From: a virus
Reading direction: 5' to 3' (one strand)
IMG/VR virus record: IMGVR_UViG_3300012205_000007
Location: 1-34,797 of that record
DNA: 34,797 bases
Positions within the stretch are counted from its first letter, which is position 1. Each line of letters starts with the position of its first letter. A program made the translations under genes and the position numbers. This document shows positions 14,554 to 33,340 of the stretch, one piece after another. Under the pieces are notes generated by a model. It was given only the letters and a program-made list of their open reading frames with translations, did not search any database and had not been told where the DNA came from.

Positions 14554-16245
14554 CTACCTAAAATTCGCATATCTCAGTTTGCTCGATCGATGATTTCTCT
14601 TAATCCCTGATAATTTATCTCTCTGACTTGCCTCGAAGTTAGTCATATTGATGTAGAACTGAGTGTAATTCTTAGTTTGCTCAGCCTGACTCATTATATT
14701 TGCCAATTGAGCAGCTCGATTATGTTCAGCTTGCCCAACTTCAAGATAATTCTGGCAGGCTTTCAAGCCATAACGAGTTTCGTCATAAGGATCATCACCG
14801 GGAAACTCTGCGACATCTTCTGAGTTTCCCTCTTCATTCGCCTCACTTCGTGAGTCGGCATCTCTTCTGTATGTACATAAGGGTATAGTCTCTATAGTTT
14901 TAACACATGTATTGAAGAATTGCAGTTTTGGTAGAAATTGCTCAGTTTCCTCAGATTCAAATAATTTTTTATATTCATTAGCTTTGGCTAGCCCAGATAT
15001 TCTATCTATTCTTTCGTACAAATTCAAATCGAATCCAGTTAGTGGAGTATAGCTAGCAGGCCTCTGACTAAATCTAAGATACTCCTGAAGCAGCAGCTTG
15101 CCTCCAAGCCTATCATTATCAGCTCGTCTTGGCTTGAATCCTGAAGATTTTGCAAACTGCTCTGCAATCGTAAGCTCATCGCCTCGATTTCCCCAAGCTG
15201 ACGGATCAAGCACGATATCTGCGTATTCTTCACCTTGGGATAATCTTTTGATGTCCGCTGCCCACACCGAAATTTTAGTCTTGAGTGCTGTATATTCACG
15301 ATATTTATAGATTTTAGCTGGATGCTTTTGGGAAGGAATAGGATTTATAGCATACCAGCCTGAACACATCATTGCTGAGTAGCCCCAATCTATGCTCAAG
15401 ACTCTTGGCCAGTAATCTGGGATAATAAACGGCTCAACAACATGGCAAGCATTCTCAGGCTCGCCTGGAAGCGGAGATTCTCTAAAATCATCAAATACTT
15501 GGCCAGAAAATGACCACCAATCTCCTAATAATTTAGCCGCTCGTTCTGCTGTGGGTAAGCTATTTAAGCGTGCTATATAATTAGGATCATTAGCCATCAA
15601 GAACGTATTATCTTCAGCTTTTGATGGGATGAAGATACGTTTTAATTCAGTCGGCTTCCCGTGAAATTCACGGGTTTCTTTAAGCAGCGTGTAGCCATTC
15701 TTTGCAGGCTCTACGAATCTCTTGCGAAAGAATGAATGAGATATATTTCCTGGATTAGTTCCACTTCTGACGAAGGCAGGTAAATTTGCGGACGCGCTTC
15801 TACAGCGAGACATCGTTAAATACAAGTACTGATGTCTGGTAAAAGAGGTTGCTTCGTCAAACAGAATGATGTTGTATTCAGATGTATCATACTTTGCAAC
15901 ATCCTTCTCATGCTCGCAATGACCAAACTGAAGAATTGCCCCAGAAGGATGGGTCCAGCGTTTCTTTTGATCTTGGTAGGAATTGAAGCCTGCTGCGTTA
16001 TAGATTTCTTTACTGCGGGGGATTACTTCATTATCTAATTCGGGGAAAGTACGACGGAGATAGAGAGCTTTGAATCTTGCATGTGAGAAGAACTGGCGCA
16101 CAATAGGAAGCATGAGCAATGTCTCAGTTTTGCCCCCACCTGCTGCTCCTCCATATAGTGCTTCAAATATCGTATCTGGCAGGCTGAGAAAATCAGCTTG
16201 TCTCTTAAATGGCGTCCAGGTCTTGATGTTGCTTGATGGAGTCAC
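14554..16245 (-). CDS. terL: Terminase large subunit
   Basis: A 563-residue packaging ATPase/nuclease. Walker A is GGAAGGGKT (residues 32-40), Walker B with the catalytic Glu is ILFDEAT (127-133), and the coupling motif region is SGTNPGN (161-167). The RNase-H-like nuclease domain has D286 in VLSIDWGYS and D347 in ADIVLDPSAW as metal ligands. The protein pumps DNA into the procapsid through the portal and cuts the concatemer. It starts at GTG (AGTGAGCAAGTGACT), with the same AGTGAGCAAG leader as the zinc micro-protein upstream. The linker EETEQFLP ... NEEGNSEDVAEF is acidic and variable. The ending is complete. Confidence 0.95.
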   Translation of the reverse strand: MTPSSNIKTWTPFKRQADFLSLPDTIFEALYGGAAGGGKTETLLMLPIVRQFFSHARFKALYLRRTFPELDNEVIPRSKEIYNAAGFNSYQDQKKRWTHPSGAILQFGHCEHEKDVAKYDTSEYNIILFDEATSFTRHQYLYLTMSRCRSASANLPAFVRSGTNPGNISHSFFRKRFVEPAKNGYTLLKETREFHGKPTELKRIFIPSKAEDNTFLMANDPNYIARLNSLPTAERAAKLLGDWWSFSGQVFDDFRESPLPGEPENACHVVEPFIIPDYWPRVLSIDWGYSAMMCSGWYAINPIPSQKHPAKIYKYREYTALKTKISVWAADIKRLSQGEEYADIVLDPSAWGNRGDELTIAEQFAKSSGFKPRRADNDRLGGKLLLQEYLRFSQRPASYTPLTGFDLNLYERIDRISGLAKANEYKKLFESEETEQFLPKLQFFNTCVKTIETIPLCTYRRDADSRSEANEEGNSEDVAEFPGDDPYDETRYGLKACQNYLEVGQAEHNRAAQLANIMSQAEQTKNYTQFYINMTNFEASQRDKLSGIKRNHRSSKLRYANFR

Positions 16246-24855: not shown

Positions 24856-25716
24856 ATGCCTAAAAAAATCATAGCAATTGATTCACAGAAGCTTGATGGC
24901 GCGCAATCTTGCGCGTATTTTTACAAATTGAAATTCATAAATCACTTAACTCCAAAAGAGACTCCAGACTACTTTGAGAAAGGATCTCTGCTCCATCATG
25001 GTCTTGATGTGTTTTATAACCTGAAGAAAAACAGATCTAGATGGCTCCAGAATAACAAAAACTATTCTAATGCAGTTAATTCTTGCATCATAGCAATGCG
25101 TCATAAAGCCGTCTCTATGAACTTGCAAGCTGAAGATATCGAGAAGATGATAGATGCATTCATTCAGTATACAGATTTCTGGGAAAATGATGATTGGTCC
25201 GATAATTCTATCTTCTCTATTGAAAATGCAGGTAGCAAAGTCATTTATGACAGTGAAGATTTATGTATCTTATACGAAGTAAAGATCGATTTGATTTTAA
25301 AAAAGAGCAACGGAACGTTGCTAGCAGTGGATCATAAATCAGTCAGCAGCAGACGAGAGCCAAATGAGTTATCTAATCAGTTCAAAGGCTACTGCTGGTT
25401 TCTTGACTCTCATTCAATAATCATTAATGACATCGGCTTGCAAAAGACTCTCAAGCCTAGTGATAAATTTAAGCGCCATGTTATTCAATATAGCCAAGCA
25501 ACTTTAGATGAGTGGCGCGAGAATACAATCTTTTGGATAAAGCTAATGCTAGGTTTAATAGAAGCAGATAAGTTTCCTAGAAATTTTACGTCTTGTGATA
25601 AATATTCAGGATGCCAGTTCAAAGAGCTTTGCAAAAAAGATCCAGAAGTTCGTGAGTTTGAAATTGATCGACTTTACGACGTTAAGCCTTGGGATGTTGG
25701 GCAGGCCAATTTGTAG
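24856..25716 (+). CDS. Cas4/RecB-like PD-(D/E)XK exonuclease
   Basis: A 286-residue nuclease. The PD-(D/E)XK core is seen as H47/H48 in EKGSLLHHGLD, D145 in YEVKIDLIL, D159-x-K161 in LLAVDHKS and Q175...Y179 in NQFKGYCWF. Four Cys at positions 19, 247, 253 and 259 (SCAYFYK; CDKYSGCQFKELCKK) match the split 4Fe-4S ligands of Cas4 and AddB. Such phage enzymes process DNA ends for recombination. No other cas genes are near, so it is not a CRISPR component here. Confidence 0.88.
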   Translation: MPKKIIAIDSQKLDGAQSCAYFYKLKFINHLTPKETPDYFEKGSLLHHGLDVFYNLKKNRSRWLQNNKNYSNAVNSCIIAMRHKAVSMNLQAEDIEKMIDAFIQYTDFWENDDWSDNSIFSIENAGSKVIYDSEDLCILYEVKIDLILKKSNGTLLAVDHKSVSSRREPNELSNQFKGYCWFLDSHSIIINDIGLQKTLKPSDKFKRHVIQYSQATLDEWRENTIFWIKLMLGLIEADKFPRNFTSCDKYSGCQFKELCKKDPEVREFEIDRLYDVKPWDVGQANL

Positions 25717-25717
25717 C

Positions 25718-26242
25718 ATGCTGTGGAAAACTAAAAGTGGGCAATATATAGAGATAAGTAAGATGGAAACATCCCATATAGCTAATACGCTACATGTAAT
25801 AGCAGGCAAGCATGAGACTATTCTCTTCACTAATAAAGCAGAGCAAATCGGAGAGATGATTGATGAATTTGAGAAGAGGACAGATATATCACAAAGAGAT
25901 TTTGACAGATTCTCACTAGCAGTTCAGACTTTAGAAAACGAGAGATATATGAGCCAGACATACAATATACGAATAAATTCTCCATTCATCTTGACACAAA
26001 CTCAAGTAAAGAATAAACTTGGCCCAGGATATAAAGTCTTATCAGTTGAAGCAGAGAAGGATTTGAACAATCATCTAGCTATCACAGATGTAGATAGTGC
26101 AGTCGAGAACATAATTCTTGTGGGCTACAGAGCTTTAGCTAGAGCATTCCATCCAGATTTGGGTGGTGATACCGAAACGATGGTAATTTTAAACAGAGCA
26201 AAAAAGGAGCTTAGTGAGCTTCTTAAAGACTTGAAGGCTTGA
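25718..26242 (+). CDS. J-domain (DnaJ-like) protein
   Basis: A 174-residue protein from the ATG at 25718, one base after the nuclease stop; longer in-frame starts lie inside the nuclease gene. The first 35 residues (MLWKTKSGQYIEISKMETSH) match a small N-terminal domain seen on many phage proteins (WxTxxGxxIxIxxMxxxH). The C-terminal end, YRALARAFHPDLGGDTETMV, carries the HPD tripeptide of J-domains that activate Hsp70/DnaK ATPase. Likely recruits the host DnaK to phage replication complexes. Confidence 0.75.
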   Translation: MLWKTKSGQYIEISKMETSHIANTLHVIAGKHETILFTNKAEQIGEMIDEFEKRTDISQRDFDRFSLAVQTLENERYMSQTYNIRINSPFILTQTQVKNKLGPGYKVLSVEAEKDLNNHLAITDVDSAVENIILVGYRALARAFHPDLGGDTETMVILNRAKKELSELLKDLKA

Positions 26243-26256
26243 TTAAAGGATAAAAT

Positions 26257-26817
26257 ATGGGAACGATAGCAAGAAATCTTAATCAAAACCTGACTCTTTC
26301 TGAGCGTCTTAAGAGAAGAAAGGCTATTACTGAGAACGCTCTACTCTTAGATTGCTCAGGTTCTATGTCGGAGTTTTGCGACAACAAAACTACTAAGATT
26401 GAAGCATTAATGAGCATAGTTAAGAATCTAAATTGTAAGCATATTTACTCTTTTGCTTCTCACGCAAGAAAATTAGCAAGCAACAAAGATCATTTAGCAG
26501 CAGAAGGATTAACTAATCTATCACCTGCATTGAACTTGCTCAAAGCTGATAATCAAAAGTCAGCTATCATAATTACAGATGGAGATATATCAGACAAGTC
26601 TCTAGTCTTAGAGTTTATAGATGCGAATCCTGAGATCAAACTACAGATTATATATGTTGGCCCAGTTGATGATAAGCCTGATTTTCTGGACATCTTGGCG
26701 AAAAAGACGAATGGCTTTGTTACTGTTGAAGATTTGGCGTCTAATCTTCTAGAAGAGAAAATTAGACTACTGTTGAATCCTGCTGAAGACTCTCAAGAAA
26801 GGTCAATCCAGTTATGA
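26257..26817 (+). CDS. von Willebrand factor A domain protein with intact MIDAS
   Basis: A 186-residue protein made almost entirely of one VWA domain. The metal-ion-dependent adhesion site is complete: D32-x-S34-x-S36 in LLDCSGSMSEF, T86 in GLTNLSPA and D108 in IIITDGDIS. VWA domains bind partner proteins through the metal. AAAGGA is six bases before the ATG. It overlaps the next gene by ATGA and sits between the J-domain gene and the DHp-like gene, so a complex of these products is plausible. Confidence 0.85.
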   Translation: MGTIARNLNQNLTLSERLKRRKAITENALLLDCSGSMSEFCDNKTTKIEALMSIVKNLNCKHIYSFASHARKLASNKDHLAAEGLTNLSPALNLLKADNQKSAIIITDGDISDKSLVLEFIDANPEIKLQIIYVGPVDDKPDFLDILAKKTNGFVTVEDLASNLLEEKIRLLLNPAEDSQERSIQL

Positions 26818-27257
26818 TAAGTAAAGACGTTATCCATTTCTCAGCATATCTTATTGAGTATTTTAGACGTGCTAATCCAGCTATAGCAGAAGTAATTGCT
26901 AACAAGACTATAGAATATGTTGGTCAAGAAGAATTTGAGAGACTTGAAGAGGATACTTTAAACGCGGATAAACGTCGTCGAGCTGAGTACTTGATTAAAG
27001 AGCTTATGGGAGTACTAGCTAATGGAGTTCCACATAAATTAAATAATCTACTTATGATCACAATCGGAAAGTGTGATATGATTAGATCCGAGATGCTATC
27101 CGATACAACTGATTATAAGAGATTAAGTGAAGCAATTCAAGCTGCTGAGCAAGCTGCTCAGATAATCTTAACAATGCGATCTCATGCTAGAAATGGTATG
27201 ATAGATCCAGAACTGCTGCGAACAACAGAGTGGATGAAAGAAATGGGTATTGATTAG
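26814..27257 (+). CDS. Orphan histidine-kinase DHp-like domain protein (147 aa)
   Basis: A 147-residue helical protein. Residues 63-126 read like a histidine-kinase dimerisation/phosphotransfer domain: H74 in GVPHKLNNLLMITIGKCDMI compares with the usual GxAHDFNNLLTxIxGxxEL, and EAIQAAEQAAQIILTMRSHA with the second DHp helix. The residue after the His is Lys instead of Asp/Glu, and no ATPase (HATPase_c) domain follows, so it cannot phosphorylate by itself. It could accept or hold phosphoryl groups or bind host kinases. The N-terminal 60 residues are an unrecognised helical region. ATGA overlap with the VWA gene. Confidence 0.7.
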   Translation: MISKDVIHFSAYLIEYFRRANPAIAEVIANKTIEYVGQEEFERLEEDTLNADKRRRAEYLIKELMGVLANGVPHKLNNLLMITIGKCDMIRSEMLSDTTDYKRLSEAIQAAEQAAQIILTMRSHARNGMIDPELLRTTEWMKEMGID

Positions 27258-27288: not shown

Positions 27289-28167
27289 ATGCCGAACACT
27301 CAAGATGTAAACAATCAGGACAACAAAATATTTGCTCTATTTAAGGGGCCGAGCGGATCTGGCAAGTCTGTTGCAGGATTAAGCTTTCCTAACCTATATG
27401 TCTTTGATTATGATTTCAAGATGCCTGCTATTGCTCTCAAACATTTCCCTAAAAAGAGCATAGATTATGATACTTTTTCTGACACAGATCAAGTCTCAGA
27501 TATTATGGAGAAGTGGTTTAAATGTCCTATTTGTGGCTATGATAAATTATGTGAGAAAGACACTGGCAATCATTGTGGAACATCATGTCCATATGAGTCT
27601 CTCTTACATGATAGCTTGACAAACATGGAAAATCTAGTAGTCAAGACTATAGGAGAAGCAAAAGGTGAGCTTGTTCCTAAGTTAATCAAGAGTATGCTCA
27701 AAAGCAAAGGTAGTAAAAGCAACAAGACAGACATGATGGATTTTGATTACTACAAAGCAGAGATGAGGTTTACAGAATGGTTACTAATGCACAGCAAAAT
27801 CTTGCTAGCCAGAAAAGGTAATCCAAAGAATATCATCTTCACTGCTCATATCGTTTCTACTGAGAGCACAAATATTCTCACTGGACTGATAACAAAAACG
27901 CGAGCAATAGTAAGTCAAGGCAACAAGGTTGGCGCTTGGATTCCTACAGTATTTGATGAAGTATATATGTTTGGTTATCATCAAACTGGTGGTACAAGCA
28001 TTCAAGACCCAATCCGAACAGATAGGTTAGTACTAACAATCCCAACAGGAGAAGATGATGCTAAGACAGCTTATCGGCTTGCACCTAATATCGATTTTAC
28101 AGATAACAGTTTTTATGATCTACTGCAAGCGCAGATAAATGGTCAGAAATTCATGAGTTCTTTATGA
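27289..28167 (+). CDS. Sak4/RecA-like ATPase with zinc insertion
   Basis: A 292-residue P-loop ATPase. The ATG at 27289 has AAGGAG at ideal spacing; a TTG at 27250 is less likely. Walker A is GPSGSGKS (20-27), followed by LYVFDYDFKM as the first acidic strand, typical of Sak4-type single-strand annealing/RecA-core ATPases. Residues 79-100 hold a zinc-binding insertion (CPICGYDKLC, then HCGTSC) that is not usual in the family. It precedes an SSB-like gene, the common partner of Sak4. Probably promotes recombination or replication fork repair. Confidence 0.83.
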   Translation: MPNTQDVNNQDNKIFALFKGPSGSGKSVAGLSFPNLYVFDYDFKMPAIALKHFPKKSIDYDTFSDTDQVSDIMEKWFKCPICGYDKLCEKDTGNHCGTSCPYESLLHDSLTNMENLVVKTIGEAKGELVPKLIKSMLKSKGSKSNKTDMMDFDYYKAEMRFTEWLLMHSKILLARKGNPKNIIFTAHIVSTESTNILTGLITKTRAIVSQGNKVGAWIPTVFDEVYMFGYHQTGGTSIQDPIRTDRLVLTIPTGEDDAKTAYRLAPNIDFTDNSFYDLLQAQINGQKFMSSL

Positions 28168-30637: not shown

Positions 30638-30843
30638 ACAATAGACTAACTCAGGAAGAAATAGAGAAGTATACTTGGAGGGAAGCAGGTCATAAATATG
30701 TATGGAAGTGCTTAGAGACAGGTAATTTTCATTTTGAAAATGAAGCAAATATGCTCGATGAAACTGAATATGACTATTTAGATGAATGCATAGCAGCTCT
30801 CAATAAGTATGAGGAATATTTAAGTAATCAAAGAGATGCATGA
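30634..30843 (+). CDS. Small hypothetical protein (69 aa)
   Basis: MNNRLTQEEIEKYTWREAGH then EANMLDETEYDYLDECIAAL: acidic helical protein. AGAGG precedes the ATG, and ATGA overlap links it to the zinc protein before it. It overlaps the polymerase fusion by eight bases. Not recognised. Confidence 0.62.
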   Translation: MNNRLTQEEIEKYTWREAGHKYVWKCLETGNFHFENEANMLDETEYDYLDECIAALNKYEEYLSNQRDA

Positions 30844-33340
30844 CTCAATATATGTACCAGGTTTAGGAAATCCTGACGCTAAGCTGATGCTTATCGGGGA
30901 AGCTCCAGGTCAGCAGGAAGAGCTTGATAGAGAACCATTTAAAGGTGCATCTGGTGCTCTTGTTAATGAATGCCTAAGAGATGCGGGATATGATCGATCT
31001 TTGTGTTATATCACTAATGTATGTAAGATTAGGCCTCCAAATAATGATATCAATAAGCTAGAGTTAATTGGCCAAAAAATTGAAGATTTTTTGCCACAAT
31101 TATATGAAGAAATTACCACTATTAATCCGAATTGCATTTTGGCGATTGGTGACATCGCTCTGCGTTACGTTACTGGATTTAAAGGCATTAAGAAATATCG
31201 TGGATCGATACTCTCTGCTGAACGAACTGGCACTAAAACTATTGCAACATTGCACCCAGCATCTTTGCTTCATAACTCAGGAAGTAATACATTATCGTCT
31301 TGGAAAGAATTAAGTGTAATCAAGCATGATTTCGCTCGTGCTGTAGAACAAAGTACTTTTAGAGAAATCAAGCTGCCGAGTAGAAACTTATGGGTTGCTA
31401 GAAATTCTCTCGATGTTGTGCGTTTTTTAGAAAGAAATCAAGACAAAGAATACGTAGCTCTAGACGTAGAGACAATTAAAACTTATGCCCAATGTATTGG
31501 TTTATCTTTCAACGCAAATGAAGCTTGTAGCATACCTTTATTTCTTGATATCATCCCTAATCATGATCTTGCTTATATGTGGCGCATGCTATCTGATTTT
31601 CTTAGCGACACAAAGATTAAGATTATGGCTCAGAATGCTAAGTTCGATGAGAAAAGATGCCGTCAAATAGGTTTAAAATGGCATGGTTGCTATTTTGATA
31701 TGGCAATGGGCTGGCATATTTTATTCTCCGAACTCCCAAAAAGTTTACAGTTTATAAGTTCTTATATAACAGATGAGCCATATTATAAAGATGAAGGTAA
31801 AGAATTTAATCCAAAGATTCACAACATCGATCGATGGTTCTTATATAACGCTAAAGATGCAGCAGTTGAGTTCGAATGCTGCGAGAAGATTTTAGCGGCA
31901 TTAAAAGAAGAAGAACTCTATGAGTTCTTCTTTGATAAGATTATGCCATTGCATAGATTATATAGTGATATCGAAGATATAGGAATTTTGATTGACAAGA
32001 GGATTCGAGCAGATCTACGAAGAAAATATGAGCGGATTAGAGAAGCAAAGCAGGCAAGCCTGATTGAAAACATATCAAAAATGTATCAGCCAGATGATTC
32101 AATCAACCTGGAGATCTTTGGGTTGTATAAGAACTTTAATGTAATGAGTAATGGTCCTAAGAATCAGGTAGCTAAATTATTATATAGCTACCTAAAACTG
32201 CCAGTAAGAGGAGACACTAGCGATGAAACCCTCAAATCTCTTGCTAACAATAACTGTAAGGATCGTAGGAGAAGAGATATCTTACTTACTATCCTTGAAG
32301 TGCGAAAACTGCGGAAAACAATTGGAACATATATTGATGCAAAACTGTCCAATGATGGTAGAATCCATACCCAATGTAATATTAATGGTACAGAATCAGG
32401 TCGTACATCTACCGGAATACTCAAAGCACCAGTGTCAATAGTAAATGAAGGTATTGCACTTCAAACTATGACTAAGCATGAAGATATCCAGTTATCTGAT
32501 GCAGGTGGGGCTGATCTTCGTAGCATGTTTGTTGCTGATGAAAACTATAGCTTTATCGAGCCTGATCTTGCTCAGGCAGAGGATAGAGTAGTATGTGTGC
32601 TTGCTAAAGACTGGCAAGCTTTAAAGGAATACGAACGCACTGAATTTAACTACAATAAACATGGTATTAAAGATGATAAACATACAAAAACTGCAATGAT
32701 AGCTTGTGAGCTTGGATTTGATGCAATAACTGACTACGAGAGGCAAGCTGGCAAGAAAACTAAACATGCAATTAATTATGACATGAAGAAGCACATGCAT
32801 ATGCTCAATCTAGCTAAGTATGCTGGAATATATATCAGCGAGTGGAAAGCAGGCAAGCAGCTTGATTTAGTACATGCTGCCAACCCTAAAATAAGGCAAG
32901 TTTATCACGCTGAGATTCAAGAAGCTTTAAGAGATAATAATTGTGAATTAGTATCTCCACATGGGAGAAGAAGAATATTCTTGAATAAATGGGGAGATGA
33001 ACTATTCAAAGAGGCTTATGCTCATCTACCTCAATGTACTGTGAGCGATCAAGTTAAGTTTGCCATGATTAGAATCAAGAAGAGAATAAGAGAGCTTGCA
33101 GAAAGTTGCTTTTATTTTCTGCTTGAAAGTCATGATTCATTTTTAGCATTATGTCATGACTCAGTAAAAGATAAAGTCTATCCAATTATTAAAGAAGAAC
33201 TAGAAAAGCATATAGATTTTAATTCATGCACGCTAAGTAGGGATTATAAACTAGTCATCCCATGTGAAATATCAGTAGGCAAGCGATGGGTAAATTATTC
33301 AGAACAATTTCTAGATGGCATGAAAAAGATAAAGATATGA
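30836..33340 (+). CDS. Uracil-DNA glycosylase / 3'-5' exonuclease / family A DNA polymerase fusion
   Basis: An 834-residue three-domain protein. Residues 1-170: family 4/5-like uracil-DNA glycosylase, with GEAPGQQEE (21-29), YITNVCKIRPP (58-68) and a TLHPASLL ending (138-145). The Cys residues that bind the usual 4Fe-4S cluster are missing. Residues 185-360: DnaQ-like exonuclease, D210-x-E212 in ALDVETI, N267...D271, Y337-x3-D341. Residues 370-834: family A polymerase, motif A DLAQAEDR (577-584), motif B around GKKTKHAINYD (639-649; the usual Tyr-Gly reads Tyr-Asp), motif C SHDSF (765-769). Replicative polymerase with built-in uracil repair or sensing. Confidence 0.88.
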   Translation: MHDSIYVPGLGNPDAKLMLIGEAPGQQEELDREPFKGASGALVNECLRDAGYDRSLCYITNVCKIRPPNNDINKLELIGQKIEDFLPQLYEEITTINPNCILAIGDIALRYVTGFKGIKKYRGSILSAERTGTKTIATLHPASLLHNSGSNTLSSWKELSVIKHDFARAVEQSTFREIKLPSRNLWVARNSLDVVRFLERNQDKEYVALDVETIKTYAQCIGLSFNANEACSIPLFLDIIPNHDLAYMWRMLSDFLSDTKIKIMAQNAKFDEKRCRQIGLKWHGCYFDMAMGWHILFSELPKSLQFISSYITDEPYYKDEGKEFNPKIHNIDRWFLYNAKDAAVEFECCEKILAALKEEELYEFFFDKIMPLHRLYSDIEDIGILIDKRIRADLRRKYERIREAKQASLIENISKMYQPDDSINLEIFGLYKNFNVMSNGPKNQVAKLLYSYLKLPVRGDTSDETLKSLANNNCKDRRRRDILLTILEVRKLRKTIGTYIDAKLSNDGRIHTQCNINGTESGRTSTGILKAPVSIVNEGIALQTMTKHEDIQLSDAGGADLRSMFVADENYSFIEPDLAQAEDRVVCVLAKDWQALKEYERTEFNYNKHGIKDDKHTKTAMIACELGFDAITDYERQAGKKTKHAINYDMKKHMHMLNLAKYAGIYISEWKAGKQLDLVHAANPKIRQVYHAEIQEALRDNNCELVSPHGRRRIFLNKWGDELFKEAYAHLPQCTVSDQVKFAMIRIKKRIRELAESCFYFLLESHDSFLALCHDSVKDKVYPIIKEELEKHIDFNSCTLSRDYKLVIPCEISVGKRWVNYSEQFLDGMKKIKI

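Follow-up and report, generated by a model that had tools for sequence, protein, structure and literature searches.

A Free-Standing Histidine-Kinase DHp Domain Encoded in the Accessory Slot of a Tailed Phage

The window analyzed here, a 34,797-base linear viral contig from a tailed phage, encodes a protein, P0001, in which sequence comparison recognizes a familiar domain, unusual here in standing free and in its setting. Residues ~50-143 are identified by homology as a genuine HisKA-type DHp, of the class of CckA and the hybrid kinases. No CA domain follows, the acceptor region carries an H/P/K/N residue pattern, and the coding character is phage-like. P0001 is tentatively read as a kinase-dead DHp dimer that would dock host response regulators or hybrid kinases and remove or sequester their phosphate, lowering signaling; this is the favored reading, at somewhat less than even chances. 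The gene lies in a variable slot of the phage genome, with the following features.

24856-25716, plus strand: exonuclease (phrog_1218, PHROG match), left border of the variable slot
25697-26242, plus strand: J-domain-like gene with an HPD motif near the C-terminus, first in a three-gene accessory block (Pfam DnaJ, E 0.057, weak)
26257-26817, plus strand: VWA-domain gene, its MIDAS-like motifs (DCSGSMS, T, TDG) intact and its stop overlapping the DHp start (ATGA)
26814-27257, plus strand: DHp-only protein P0001, 147 aa (kinase-profile homology; coding-like codon use, z = 5.1)
27292-28167, plus strand: Sak4-like ATPase (AAA_24) bordering the slot on the right, with AAGGAG before the ATG (a clear ribosome site)
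14554-16245, minus strand: large terminase subunit

P0001 is an open frame whose start codon (ATG) shares bases with the VWA stop codon (TGA). Its codon use, compared with shuffles, is like that of the phage's own genes; the score is positive in the true frame only and similar to those of the VWA and J-domain-like genes. Because of this phage-like codon use, P0001 is taken as a live gene. The GC contents at the three codon positions (0.50/0.34/0.25) also display coding periodicity. The slot is part of a plus-strand replication block comprising an SNF2 helicase, the exonuclease, the Sak4-like ATPase, a ParB/methylase-like protein, a UDG-type N-terminus with a DNA polymerase, and a primase. The DNA polymerase with its uracil-DNA-glycosylase-like N-terminus is a single 834-aa ORF (30836-33340), an arrangement also seen, by sequence, in related phages. 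No tRNA was found in a search of the window.

The kinase homology is visible at several levels. A profile HMM of seven bacterial kinases, from which P0001 was left out, matches P0001 at 57 bits (E 1.7e-15), a score flattered by the fact that these kinases were picked by their similarity to P0001; among 5,000 shuffled copies, the top score is 11.5 bits. Over 15,781 ORFs, P0001 is the sole match to this HMM (the same ORF is present twice). The original prediction had proposed HMM searches as a check, and the outcome is divided: the NCBIfam kinase models PRK13557, VirA-like and CckA match at 2e-6 to 7e-6, but Pfam HisKA (PF00512) does not match above its gathering cut-off, and no Hpt family match was found in Pfam or NCBIfam, P0001 having only a two-helix DHp and a helical N-terminus. 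The Pfam cut-off (26.9 bits) falls within the scores of bona fide kinases of the same class (21-30 bits), and one full kinase of this class, L094, scores below it too (21.4). In the PDB, a single-sequence search returned 5idj ('Histidine kinase', E 0.021) as the only match, and a profile including kinases matches 5idj, LvrB, FixL chimeras, ZraS and KinB. A tblastn search of plasmids gave 24 matches, some in annotated kinases and the others in frames with a loose name or no annotation; seven of the 24 were translated, all with the kinase H-box. The best match in 284 bacterial genomes of one phylum (4.8e-12) spans residues 32-136, so the homology takes in part of the linker preceding the DHp. 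The single-sequence matches are weak but mutually consistent. As for other folds, a designed helical repeat matches the P0001 profile weakly (2e-4), and no unrelated helical family proved a better match, the Pfam family SKIP_SNW being rejected at E 0.16. The residues and helices of interest are located as follows.

26814-26961, plus strand: N-terminal helical region, residues 1 to ~49 (no convincing relatives)
27009-27068, plus strand: H-box, residues 66-85, GVLANGVPHKLNNLLMITIG (kinase HMM and alignment)
27027-27089, plus strand: predicted DHp helix 1, residues 72-92 (AF2 with alignment)
27033-27035, plus strand: H74, predicted phospho-acceptor position, with P73 and K75 on either side (translation, alignment)
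27045-27047, plus strand: N78, the H+4 residue required for HisKA phosphatase activity (alignment; role from PMC3510030)
27108-27191, plus strand: predicted DHp helix 2, residues 99-126 (AF2 with alignment)

From about residue 32, the N-terminal region aligns with the coiled linker that precedes the DHp in bacterial kinases. P0001 keeps the H, N-N and G positions that kinases hold invariant, and the phospho-acceptor histidine (H74) is found in all 33 aligned sequences. Both neighbors of this histidine are changed. The H+1 position, mostly Asp or Glu in kinases and their general base, is a lysine (K75), and the H-1 position, an alanine in more than 90% of the aligned set, is a proline (P73). 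The latter is an unexplained departure and could weaken phosphatase activity or receiver binding. Pfam finds no HATPase_c in P0001; the ORF stops at the DHp-CA linker, and the Sak4-like gene comes next. The central observations of the original prediction are therefore borne out: an H-box and second helix resembling those of a DHp (residues 66-85 and 99-126), an end before any HATPase_c domain, and a lysine in place of the acidic residue after the histidine.

AF2 supplied with 32 kinase DHp sequences folds residues 22-69, 72-92 and 99-126 into helices that form a hairpin, H74 lying close to the beginning of the helix at 72-92, although this hairpin is partly circular because the alignment consists of kinases. 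The confidence is high over residues 81-120 (pLDDT ~84-96), with a pTM of 0.45. The model made from the single sequence is poor (pLDDT 51) and was set aside. In a Foldseek search, GacS is the top match (E 0.34) and no E-value falls below 0.001; four of the best six PDB matches are histidine kinases or DHp domains, at non-significant E-values from 0.34 up. The fold search against viral structure predictions gave no significant match. The hairpin bearing a histidine that had been anticipated appears in the alignment-based model, with histidine kinases leading the fold search but not significantly. As modeling evidence, a fold search that is not significant alone and an alignment built on kinase homologues would count against the docking reading.

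According to the proposed mechanism, P0001 would be made as a free-standing HisKA DHp without a catalytic ATPase, and two copies most likely pair into a four-helix bundle that leaves H74 exposed. P0001 should be unable to autophosphorylate, as it has neither a CA domain nor an acidic general base following the histidine. The dimer may then bind the receiver of a host response regulator or hybrid kinase, where the retained H74/N78 face would remove or sequester the receiver phosphate, acting as a phosphatase or a sink. Host two-component output, in a presumed target pathway, would consequently fall during infection, to the putative benefit of the phage.

Work on four HisKA kinases shows that kinase activity depends on the H+1 acid and phosphatase activity does not, while for the H+4 Thr/Asn the dependence is reversed (PMC3510030). 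Because of this division, the H/P/K/N pattern fits a kinase-dead, phosphatase-competent HisKA protein: kinase activity is predicted to be lost, and phosphatase activity or receiver binding may be possible. Moreover, the title of Zhu 2000, as cited in PMC3510030, states that EnvZ keeps phosphatase activity without its catalytic domain. By analogy, PIT4, a phage protein acting via host kinase domains, would also count for docking by P0001. On the other side, the proline replacing such a conserved alanine could distort the docking or acceptor site.

An unlikely alternative is that P0001 is a dominant-negative decoy, heterodimerizing with a host kinase of the CckA/hybrid type through the DHp bundle and spoiling its autophosphorylation, with the response regulators left untouched. 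The DHp is a dimerization module, P0001 has its two helices as well as some of the linker that precedes them, and PIT4 provides a precedent for phage proteins that act by kinase-domain binding. However, kinase dimers are usually self-specific, and P0001 shares no more than ~30-39% identity with the kinases found, which is low for heterodimerization unless its host has a much closer one. The lysine after the histidine, considered as proof of a decoy, is weakened by bacterial kinases with the same lysine.

The surroundings of P0001 bear on another alternative. The exonuclease and the Sak4-like gene are both present in 93 distinct related phage loci, and none of these (0/93) carries the DHp gene, so the homologues envisaged in related phages were not encountered there. 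The closest full related locus (L257, polymerase 57% identical) has a zinc-ribbon gene and no DHp in the slot, and a crude motif finds such a gene in the slot of 43 of the 93 loci. This zinc-ribbon gene (HKYE...C..C.H; for example, L257:3687-4013 and L006:4391-4660) is replaced here by the J-domain-like, VWA and DHp genes. No relative of the J-domain-like gene was found in related phages, and the closest relatives of the phage lack both the VWA and the DHp genes. VWA relatives occur in 21 phage loci, with different neighbors and, in all 21, without an adjoining DHp; the VWA linkage was accordingly rejected as a clue to the function of P0001. Since the slot contents and the VWA neighbors vary, the three-gene block is an accessory insertion, and the coupling to VWA is no sign of a conserved partnership. 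This coupling had been regarded as an indication that the gene is not debris; the ATGA overlap is real, but it says little. In two related phages, the genes directly 3' of VWA (L061:4147-4707 and L074:2467-3558) seem to have a C-terminal helical stretch in common (RLEKLKSLAL...ERK) and are perhaps, judged by eye, a VWA partner family.

P0001 might instead be a dimerization scaffold repurposed for the VWA/J-domain block, serving phage chaperone or assembly functions and having no two-component role. Such a role also has a low probability. It would accord with the translational coupling to VWA and the nearby J-domain-like gene, with the proposal that VWA and DnaJ proteins of other phages are assembly factors (PMC7824862), and with P73 and K75, which suggest a relaxed acceptor chemistry. 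It agrees poorly with the different neighbors of the phage VWA relatives and with the retention of all kinase-invariant H, N-N and G positions, needless for a mere scaffold.

Less plausible again is an Hpt-like phosphotransfer, by which H74 would take a phosphate from one receiver and pass it to another, rewiring a host phosphorelay. H74 is kept and the related kinase class is often hybrid, with a receiver, but the histidine is flanked by P73 and K75, and the window showed no receiver-domain protein that could be its partner.

Free-standing DHp proteins of this kind are rare. No close relative of P0001 was found in viral contigs, and the GenBank phages gave one insignificant match (E 9). The contig of P0001 or its near copies may be absent from these searches and from those that follow. 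The H-box pattern G[VI][AP]H[DK][FL]NN was scanned in viruses, and 80 viral contigs with this pattern encode relatives. HATPase motifs are present in 79 of the 82 motif-bearing frames; two of the other three run off the available stretch, and the last has 343 residues past the motif. Neither a clear DHp-only protein nor a lysine at H+1 was seen among these ~80 contigs. In bacteria, a scan of 84,980 species genomes for the lysine version gave 31 stretches. Large kinases with multiple domains are encoded by 23 of these; the others are short frames arising by chance or an unrelated enzyme. All matches in eight lysine-version genomes (67/67), as well as all those in the 284 genomes from a single phylum, fall in frames of at least 360 aa, a 360-aa frame sitting at the edge of the available stretch, and are therefore kinases. 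The HK[FL]NN motif, with its lysine at H+1, occurs in more than 20 bacterial HisKA kinases (L109-L138), many of them deltaproteobacterial, and an ATPase domain is detectable in most. The lysine at H+1 is thus rare but not unique, and a free-standing DHp was found in P0001 alone among the genomes searched. An orphan DHp with this lysine had been correctly noticed and is rare among viral contigs, though the lysine itself is not peculiar to it. The lack of any homologous DHp-only gene in these searches, and with it of a sign of conservation, counts against the docking reading. It is nonetheless very improbable that P0001, a singleton absent from every related phage locus, is a functionless decaying fragment of a captured kinase gene, considering its clean boundary at the DHp end, its unbroken frame, the coupling of its start to the preceding gene and its phage-like codon usage, with no HATPase remnant 3' of it and the Sak4-like gene starting 34 bases past its stop.

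Returning to the kinase-dead DHp dimer, its boldest version, in which the phage disarms a host pathway with a stand-alone, phosphatase-competent kinase mimic that drains response-regulator phosphate, is more doubtful. The original prediction, whose interpretation is supported in part, regarded phage proteins that could titrate or rewire a host two-component pathway as not established. Because PIT4 of Pseudomonas phage LSL4, which binds host histidine-kinase domains, has been published (PMC10714779), interference of phages with kinases in general is established, but not by DHp mimicry. The authors of that work stated in 2023 that no phage protein directly targeting a two-component system had been reported before (PMC10714779). 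PIT4 is likewise the sole phage protein directly touching a host two-component system in the literature searched here, which yielded no paper on phage-encoded histidine kinases or on DHp-only proteins from phages. PIT4 and P0001, likened by description, would share signaling kinases as a target class; PIT4, in contrast to P0001, is described as a kinase-domain binder and not as a DHp copy. If P0001 acts as proposed, kinase mimicry would be a second, mechanistically different route, and a clear test is possible since the residues determining kinase and phosphatase activity are known.

The closest viral DHp domains (phmmer E 3e-9 to 2e-6) are those of phrog_5982 (L094, L095, L097, L098, L101), whose profile P0001 matches in its DHp portion. 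These proteins are phage-borne like P0001; unlike it, they are full-size kinases that have the usual HD pair and, besides the DHp, PAS, HATPase and receiver domains. Phrog_5982, listed as of unknown function, in fact consists of complete phage hybrid histidine kinases (PAS-HisKA-HATPase-receiver). One of them (L094:3364-5676, plus strand) adjoins an amidase endolysin, a primase and helicases, and is possibly a phage-borne sensor near lysis genes. The bacterial HK[FL]NN kinases have the lysine after the histidine in common with P0001, but they are large and multi-domain, mostly with a detectable ATPase motif. With the CckA-type and hybrid kinases (PDB 5idj; NCBIfam CckA, VirA-like, PRK13557), P0001 shares both helices, the acceptor histidine, the H+4 asparagine, the DHp end and the H-box G-x-L-A-x-G-V-x-H-x-[LF]-N-N-L-L; it differs from them by the lack of a sensor/PAS and of a HATPase, by the proline at H-1 and by the lysine at H+1. 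P0001 would thereby be a natural free-standing DHp devoid of CA. Spo0B and ChpT, which are DHp-derived phosphotransferases, keep a degenerate ATPase-like domain, whereas P0001 has nothing beyond the DHp.
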